Origin: Bacillota bacterium
GTDB lineage: Bacteria > Bacillota > UBA4882 > UBA8346
Assembly (NCBI GenBank): GCA_012735315.1
Contig: JAAYHS010000019.1
Span: 1 to 33,246 of the forward strand
Length of the DNA: 33,246 nt
Direction of reading: 5' to 3'
A model generated the notes under the pieces. That model was given only the letters and a program-made list of their open reading frames with translations. It was not told the DNA's origin and did no database searches. This document shows, in pieces, positions 1 to 1,304 of this stretch (positions are counted from its first letter, which is position 1; each line of letters opens with the position of its first letter). Made by a program: the position numbers and the translations under genes.

Positions 1-470
1 AAAATGATACCGGTTAAAACCGGTAAAAAACCTTGGACGGTGATAATAATGGGTTTTATATCGGTTTTAACCGATAAGATTAGTTGCAGCCACGGATTTC
101 AATCCGTGGATTGGGGATCGTGATTGGGAAAGATGGATTGGAGATTTTGGCAAACTAATGATTGAGGTAAAAAACATGAAAACCCGCCACGGGTTAGAAA
201 CCCGTGGCAAAAAAATGATACCGGTTAAAACCGGTAAAAAACCTTGAACGGCGATATATAATGGGTTTTAATATCGGTTTTAACCGATAAGATTAGTTGC
301 AGCCATGGATTTCAATCCGTGGATTGGGGATCGTGATTGGATAATGTGGATTAGTTATTTTGGTTAAAAGTGATTGAGGTAAAAAACATGAAAACCTGAG
401 AAAATAATAATACCGGTTAAAACCGGTAAAAAACCTTCTCGAACGGCAACATATTATCGGGTTAATAGAA
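1..470. repeat. Tandem ~200-bp repeat array of short palindromes (REP-like)
   Basis: Two nearly identical units start at about 1 and 212, and a third, rapidly diverging one at about 401. Each begins with the palindrome ACCGGTTAAAACCGGT (9-24, 220-235, 412-427). Units 1 and 2 then carry TATCGGTTTTAACCGATA (59-76, 272-289) and CCACGGATTTCAATCCGTGG (90-109; 303-322 with one C-to-T change). Unit 1 ends with a fourth palindrome at 186-208 (arms GCCACGGGTT / AACCCGTGGC, loop AGA) that unit 2 lacks. All four have CGGnTT-type left arms and AAnCCG-type right arms with tiny loops. No ORF covers the array. The layout resembles REP/palindromic-unit clusters; no RAYT transposase gene lies in the window, so the family assignment is inference. 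Confidence 0.8.
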
Positions 471-587: not shown

Positions 588-1304
588 ATGAAAAAATTCC
601 TCAAAATCATCACCTTAACCTTTGGTTTTTTCCTTTTGGCCGTTTTAGGCTACTATCTAATCATTATTATCAAGGCGCGCGTGGAGACACCCCGCATAAT
701 CGGCCAAGCCTTGCGGGCTGAAAATATGGTTTTGAAAGTAAGCGACCTGAGCGAATGGCAACTGAACGCTTTGTTGAAGATTGAAGATCCGGCTTTTTAT
801 CGACATAAAGGGGTTGATTTGAGAACGCCGGGAGCGGGTTTGACAACCATCACCCAGGGCTTGGTTAAAATGTACTATTTCGAGCGCTTCGAAGCGGGTT
901 TGGCCAAAATAAAGCAGACCCTGATCGCCAGGTTCGCCTTGGACCCGTTGGTTGCCAAGGATCTTCAATTACAATTGTTTATCAATAATGTATATTTGGG
1001 AGACGTCAACGGTGAACCGGTCTATGGATTTGATAAGGCGGCGCGTGTTTATTACGGGAAACCGGTCAATCAATTAAGCCAAAAAGAGTATTTATCGATC
1101 GTGGCGATGATCAATTCGCCGCAAGGCTTTCATATCCTGAAACGGCCCGCCGCCAACGCGGAGCGGACGGAGAGGCTGATGAAGGTGGTATCCGGCGAAT
1201 ATCGGCCGAAACATTTGATGGATCTGTATTACGGGAAACTGGACCGGGAAACTCAAAAGTATCTGGCCCCGGCGTCTTATTTTCCGAAGCTTTATGAAGA
1301 TTAG
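588..1304 (+). CDS. Monofunctional GT51 peptidoglycan glycosyltransferase-like protein
   Basis: A 238-residue membrane-anchored glycosyltransferase of family GT51, which polymerises lipid II into glycan strands outside the membrane. Residues 5-29 form one hydrophobic N-terminal anchor. The catalytic motif I is present as EDPAFYRHKG (E66, D67), followed by motif II GLTTITQGLVK (residues 84-94; usually GxSTITQQ) and the FINNVYLG motif (131-138). The usual KxxE of motif III reads KIKQ (107-110), so the second conserved glutamate is glutamine. There is no transpeptidase domain, so it resembles MtgA rather than a bifunctional PBP. It stands alone, flanked by the palindrome array and a convergent methyltransferase gene. 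The family is clear; activity is uncertain. Confidence 0.85.
   Translation: MKKFLKIITLTFGFFLLAVLGYYLIIIIKARVETPRIIGQALRAENMVLKVSDLSEWQLNALLKIEDPAFYRHKGVDLRTPGAGLTTITQGLVKMYYFERFEAGLAKIKQTLIARFALDPLVAKDLQLQLFINNVYLGDVNGEPVYGFDKAARVYYGKPVNQLSQKEYLSIVAMINSPQGFHILKRPAANAERTERLMKVVSGEYRPKHLMDLYYGKLDRETQKYLAPASYFPKLYED

Follow-up and report, generated by a model that had tools for sequence, protein, structure and literature searches.

What is the array of palindromes with which this contig of a Bacillota genome begins? The window analysed here, 33,246 nt in length, is the whole of contig C78, one of 216 contigs in a 2.95 Mb genome (G000), and the start of the contig falls inside a repeat. It encodes an OmpA-domain protein, which suggests that the host belongs to a diderm lineage of Bacillota. 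A preliminary description had read positions 1-470 as a tandem array of four different palindromes in a fixed order and offered three options for it: a composite REP-like element, a protein-binding array or a structured RNA. We found that the window starts with a repeat of ~145 bases that runs in tandem for two and a half copies, each built of four hairpins that follow one another in fixed order (P1 GCCACGGGTTAGAAACCCGTGGC, P2 TACCGGTTAAAACCGGTA, P3 TATCGGTTTTAACCGATA and P4 CCRYGGATTTCAATCCGTGG).

All three units lie on the plus strand. Unit 1 (1-119; covariance model match 1-119, E = 1e-16) includes the inner-left hairpin P2 (8-25, TACCGGTTAAAACCGGTA), detected by the palindrome search and in the alignment of copies; the inner-right hairpin P3 (59-76, TATCGGTTTTAACCGATA), all pairs of which are invariant across 13 aligned copies; and the outer-right hairpin P4 (90-109, CCACGGATTTCAATCCGTGG), detected by the palindrome search and showing compensatory changes. 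A segment of flanking DNA amplified with the element (110-185, plus strand) separates it from unit 2 and recurs as a direct repeat at ~323-397. Unit 2 (184-332) is a complete element, matching all 151 positions of the model (E = 3.6e-28, for a copy that belongs to the training set). Its hairpins are P1 (outer-left, 186-208, GCCACGGGTTAGAAACCCGTGGC), in which a GC to AU compensatory change distinguishes 5 of the 13 copies; P2 (219-236) and P3 (272-289), both located by palindrome search and alignment; and P4 (303-322, CCATGGATTTCAATCCGTGG), located by comparison of the sequence repeats and containing one G-T pair. Unit 3 (404-468) is eroded: it was recognized as a direct repeat with a weak model match (385-465, E = 0.013) and retains one good palindrome (P2, 411-428) alongside a degenerate P3 (453-468). 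The first gene beside the array, outside the element, encodes a transglycosylase (588-1304, plus strand; domain match to PF00912). Further along, the minus strand carries at 2256-2960 an alpha/beta-hydrolase-like coding region that may be interrupted; its 153 aa ORF matches only the end of the Pfam profile.

Apart from the P4 with the G-T pair, which makes an eighth, there are seven palindromes in 1-470 whose arms are 8 bp or longer (range 8-10 bp) and whose loops measure 2-3 nt. This compares with 0.07 per shuffle, and at most 2, in 300 dinucleotide shuffles of the same stretch, so that the array as originally described is borne out; the remaining 32.7 kb of the window holds seven palindromes by the same criteria. 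Direct repeats with periods of 211-213 and 192 agree with the two to three units of ~200 bp that had been proposed, but the first of these is cut by the contig edge and the third is eroded. The palindromes have in common the core CGG(n)TT..AA(n)CCG. The design CGGnTT/AAnCCG given earlier for all arms is thus correct for the outer palindromes (CGGGTT/AACCCG or CGGATT/AATCCG) but not for the inner ones, which are CGGTT/AACCG and lack the n.

The last 100 bases of contig C98 from the same genome are identical to window positions 1-100, and C98 supplies the P1 of unit 1 that is cut off by the edge of the window. The most likely cause of the break between C98 and C78 is therefore an assembly fork arising at this repeat. 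With the two contigs joined, the array is at least ~500 bp long and comprises two full units and the eroded third. Other contig ends in this genome also fall in four-hairpin repeats (the end of C132 and the starts of C143 and C167, in addition to the end of C98 and the start of C78). Four-hairpin repeats explain contig breaks in these metagenome assemblies, and because several contigs begin or end in them the true copy number is probably above our count.

A DNA search identified related stretches in the same genome on contigs C98, C143, C1, C132, C18, C188 and C212. We built a covariance model (R1) from 13 full copies only, which share fixed order and polarity and align end to end; they come from this genome, a genome of the same genus (G001) and one of the same family (G008). 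At E ≤ 0.001 the model matched the own genome 17 times, or at 16 distinct places once the end of C98 and the start of C78 are joined, and some of these matches are other families (types B and C) rather than the window-type repeat (type A). In the relatives, with the two strands merged, there were ~11 matches in G001, 11 in G008, and 7 and 4 in two further genomes of the same family (G006 and G003, respectively). The preliminary description was to count as refuted if the unit were confined to this locus, lacked related palindromes in the rest of the genome and gave no transcript; relatives were found at many loci. The 15 own-genome copies whose flanks were checked all fall outside any ORF of at least 100 aa. 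The family is thus dispersed, intergenic and multicopy, as REP sequences are, but REPs usually exceed 100 copies per genome, and the 16 places found here fall short of that, with further copies perhaps hidden by assembly breaks.

The consensus of the 13 copies is P1, ~12 nt, P2, a spacer variable in both length and sequence, P3, ~11 nt and P4, for a total element length of ~145-180 bp. The outer hairpins read GCCACGGGTT..AACCCRTGGC, and the inner ones ACCGGTTAAAACCGGT on the left and ATCGGTTTTAACCGAT on the right. P4 is preceded by CAG or AAG and followed by ATTGRG or CTTGAG, and the bases before P1 are variable, often CAA. No GTAG or GTGG foot was present at the feet of P1-P4 when read in the alignments. 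Solo half-elements with one outer and one inner hairpin also occur, as REP singlets do, so that the family has both the inverted halves around a spacer and the solo halves of REPINs. A strict pattern of inner plus outer palindrome retrieved only own-genome copies from the genomes of the family, being too strict for the relatives. A looser pattern run on 84,980 genomes retrieved nine stretches, six in Bacillota MAGs and three in Chloroflexi/Anaerolineaceae. No clean empty site was recovered; comparison of a G008 locus with G003 aligned only paralogous small genes.

When the four local hairpins were imposed on the 13 copies, 95.2% of the pair cells were standard pairs, compared with 28-43% in slid controls. 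Both sides had changed in 13 cells, against 4.3 in shuffles, and none of 500 shuffles reached the observed value. In P1, GGGTT/AACCC is replaced by GAGTT/AACTC in G008 and in one G001 copy; in P4, another set of copies has GGGTT/AACCC in place of GGATT/AATCC. Each hairpin is therefore maintained separately, and not as a long P1:P4 stem. Single copies can form such a long-range stem (30-34 of 36 pairs), and RNA folding favors it. As a conserved structure, pairing of P1 with P4 and P2 with P3 was rejected: P1 and P4 vary independently, and the inner hairpins are not mutually complementary in types B and C or in G012, a genome from another family of the class. Judged from the aligned sequences, the conserved feature is the set of local hairpins.

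The R1 model also matched, over nearly its full length, families in the own genome that have the same architecture and different palindromes. Type B (C3, C190, C89 and part of C160) is composed of CAATCAAAGGGTTAAAACCCTTTG, AGCCGGATGAATCCGGCT, AGCCCCATTGATGGGGCT with variants, and AGCCGTGGTATTTATGCCACGG; the matches on C3, C190 and C89 have E-values of 4e-10 to 2e-8. Type C (C47, C167, C109 and C17) has GCCGCGGGTTGAAACCCACGGC, AGCCCGGTTCCACCGGGCT and CCGGGGGTTTTAACCCCCGG, with an inner-right hairpin that is weaker in some copies, and was matched at E = 6e-4 on C47 and 0.002 on C167. Yet another set of four hairpins occurs on C44 of G003. From set to set the palindromes are exchanged but their order, outer-inner-inner-outer, stays the same, and the inner pair is unlike in every set in which both are clear. 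We also noted that in G008 and G003 the element lies within a larger frame of terminal inverted repeats (TIRs), described further below (L184, L185, L082, L183 and, with the left end only, L076); the different hairpin set on C44 sits within this same frame. In repeats of G003, a small palindrome CGTGTTCAAGAACACG and its variants have apparently inserted in the outer hairpin, and a variant lies inside one four-hairpin repeat in G006, so that repeats are nested in repeats (outer-right hairpin of L127; L187:980-1030; L131:520-560).

The preliminary description had also called for a search for a RAYT gene. One Y1_Tnp gene was found in the own genome, on C17, where it directly follows a type C unit and runs in the same direction, but it is not of the RAYT class. 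In G001 (C290, C95), G003 (C243) and G008 (C350), remnants of this same transposase are found no more than ~150 bp from type C repeats. Type C is thus found upstream of the Y1 gene or beside remnants in four genomes of three genera (G000, G001, G003 and G008). Given roughly a dozen repeats in a genome of 3.7 Mb, we estimate the chance of a single such adjacency at the order of 0.001. No type A copy was found beside a Y1 gene, and the link to the window runs via its sister family. By domain the protein is Y1_Tnp/IS200 (NCBIfam name IS200/IS605 transposase), and its relatives by sequence include the solved IS608 and other transposase structures. RAYT transposases have an NP-type tyrosine motif. 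This one does not: its motif, YVLNQKKHH, is of the IS200-type Y..NQ.

Close relatives of the protein (E ≤ 1e-12) occur in 2 of 398 genomes of the phylum, the own genome included. G012 encodes a relative with 36% identity, the tyrosine motif YILKQEIHH and an intact DHVH motif. Upstream of its gene are an unrelated four-hairpin unit and another, truncated copy of that unit; the rest of the G012 genome contains only two weak partial matches to it. The catalytic tyrosine is kept in both proteins. In the own genome, however, the HUH motif lacks three residues including the second His (DHI---LSI). Because part of this motif is lost, the array in the window is probably a fossil, and the broken motif suggests that the transposition system is dying in this genome.

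In combination, the architecture, the dispersal to intergenic sites, the covariation of the local hairpins and the linkage of type C to a transposase gene, all directly observed, favor the reading that the array arose by local tandem amplification of a non-autonomous, REPIN-like repeat, which an IS200-type Y1 transposase would mobilize in single-stranded form. We regard this as the probable origin. Single-stranded hairpins are the substrates of IS200/IS605 and TnpAREP transposases, and for IS608, ISDra2 and TnpAREP the cleavage sites are chosen via a guide tetranucleotide 5′ of the hairpin (PMC8266576, PMC6006769). Each element here would have two ends, with an outer and an inner hairpin at each and the variable spacer between. 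As single-stranded DNA it would form four local hairpins. The enzyme, a Y1 HUH transposase from the IS200/IS605 superfamily, would bind those at both ends and cut beside them, after which the element would be moved or copied into another intergenic site. The unlike inner hairpins may mark left versus right, and the outer hairpins with their conserved unpaired neighbors (AG before P4 and TTGRG after it) are natural candidates for cleavage determinants. The window's family would have been moved by the genome's own Y1 transposase or by a lost relative, and would now be immobile locally, given the broken HUH motif in the one Y1 gene found there. The tandem units with amplified flanks are similar to the REP clusters described as singletons or dimers reiterated with flanking DNA segments (PMC3733652).

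Among the options first proposed, the composite REP-like element is the best, in that the repeat is dispersed, intergenic and palindromic and has a sister family with a Y1 transposase gene as its neighbor; it is not a classical REP. REPs and REPINs (BIMEs) with their RAYT/TnpAREP transposases (PMC3116915, PMC2817692, PMC8266576) are likewise short intergenic palindromes in inverted paired halves and solo halves, amplified in tandem with flanking DNA, with one Y1 gene per genome flanked by related repeats, in the present case those of sister type C. Here, however, each half has two hairpins of unlike sequence and there are tens of copies at most, not hundreds; because the GTAG/GTGG foot and a RAYT-type tyrosine motif are both lacking, we did not file the element as REP/RAYT proper. 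TIRtrons and TIR repeats (Di Nocera, 2013; PMC3733652) are also non-GTAG, include some double palindromes, flank Y1 genes and are dispersed as singles, dimers and groups; in the consulted part of that study the named examples are from Proteobacteria and Acidobacteria, and neither a four-hairpin order with distinct inner hairpins nor several co-resident families of this kind were found there. The class 3 TnpAY1 repeats (Quentin, 2018; PMC6006769) resemble ours by features, with a Y1 protein intermediate between IS and RAYT, a Y..Q motif and several atypical flanking hairpins that are dispersed, but their foot CnGA was not seen here and they are mainly from Planctomycetes, Acidobacteria and Proteobacteria. 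IS200/IS605 elements and their non-autonomous derivatives depend, as proposed for this repeat, on a Y1 HUH protein acting on hairpins near both ends, and their left and right ends differ. The characterized elements have one subterminal hairpin per end. The repeat described here has two, with no gene inside and no cleavage site recognizable from the sequence. The closest known systems are thus REPIN/BIME, with the same organization of halves, TIRtrons with double-palindromic TIRs and the class 3 TnpAY1 repeats, and the four-hairpin unit, which comes in several sequence families that coexist, seems to be a new form of such repeats.

Movement as double-stranded DNA would make the element a MITE of a DDE-type transposon, with the hairpins as structured TIRs. 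The halves are indeed imperfect inverted repeats, and four copies in G008 and G003 (C171, C259, C464 and C44) lie inside a ~250 bp unit with near-perfect TIRs (CAATGTCATCARGCTA / TAGCYTGATGACATTG), of which a fifth copy, on C34, shows the left one. However, this frame is limited to G003 and G008 and the window's copies are without it, nor is the inner-left hairpin an inverted copy of the inner-right one in types B and C. The combination of TIRs and target duplications that marks a DDE MITE was not found, inspection of the window-type copies having revealed no target duplications, and the transposase gene linked to the architecture is Y1. We thus consider a MITE unlikely. The bare possibility that the array is an artefact, given its place at a contig end, is already refuted by complete copies inside contigs (C1, C18 and C132:23250) and in independently assembled genomes, and chance or misassembly can be given virtually no weight.

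Neither of the other two options in the preliminary description gained specific support. An array of binding sites for a chromosomal protein, kept for a host function such as the nucleoid or gyrase sites proposed for BIMEs, would account for the intergenic position, conserved palindromes and tandem clustering; we hold it to be improbable, as palindromes swapped wholesale between families under a constant architecture fit recognition of structure better than binding by one double-stranded DNA-binding protein. Slightly more doubtful again is a structured regulatory RNA or transcription terminator. Unit 2 folds at -61.5 kcal/mol (z = -6.5), and there are five terminator-like sites on the minus strand where 1.1 are expected, but such terminators would be of no use to the first gene to the right, which lies on the plus strand. 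Moreover, there was no Rfam match at the gathering threshold, sub-threshold hits were to scattered unrelated families, and promoter-like sites were no more common than in shuffles.

A broader form of the REPIN-like reading, which we advance only tentatively, is that the repeats belong to a modular superfamily of quadruple-hairpin elements, in which palindromes are replaced wholesale while the order is kept, the inner hairpins always differ, mobilization is IS200-type and a REPIN-like lifestyle has arisen independently. If the REPIN-like reading is correct, parasitism of this kind on a single-strand transposase would not be confined to GTAG/RAYT systems, and two unlike hairpins per end would provide a new test of how Y1 enzymes discriminate left from right.

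In Chloroflexi/Anaerolineaceae MAGs (L086:3000-3270, L091:4100-4600 and L094:1400-1600) we noted other loop-poor palindromes (TCCTATGAATCAATTCATAGGA, AACCGGTTTCAACCGGTTT, ATCCATGGATTTGAATCCATGGAT and others) that also form tandem arrays with a fixed order. No Y1 gene was seen near them, and they are possibly a convergent system. These arrays sit between NADH-dehydrogenase-like and MurJ-like genes (named by eye), and pieces of the array are dispersed in the HGW-Chloroflexi-3 genome.
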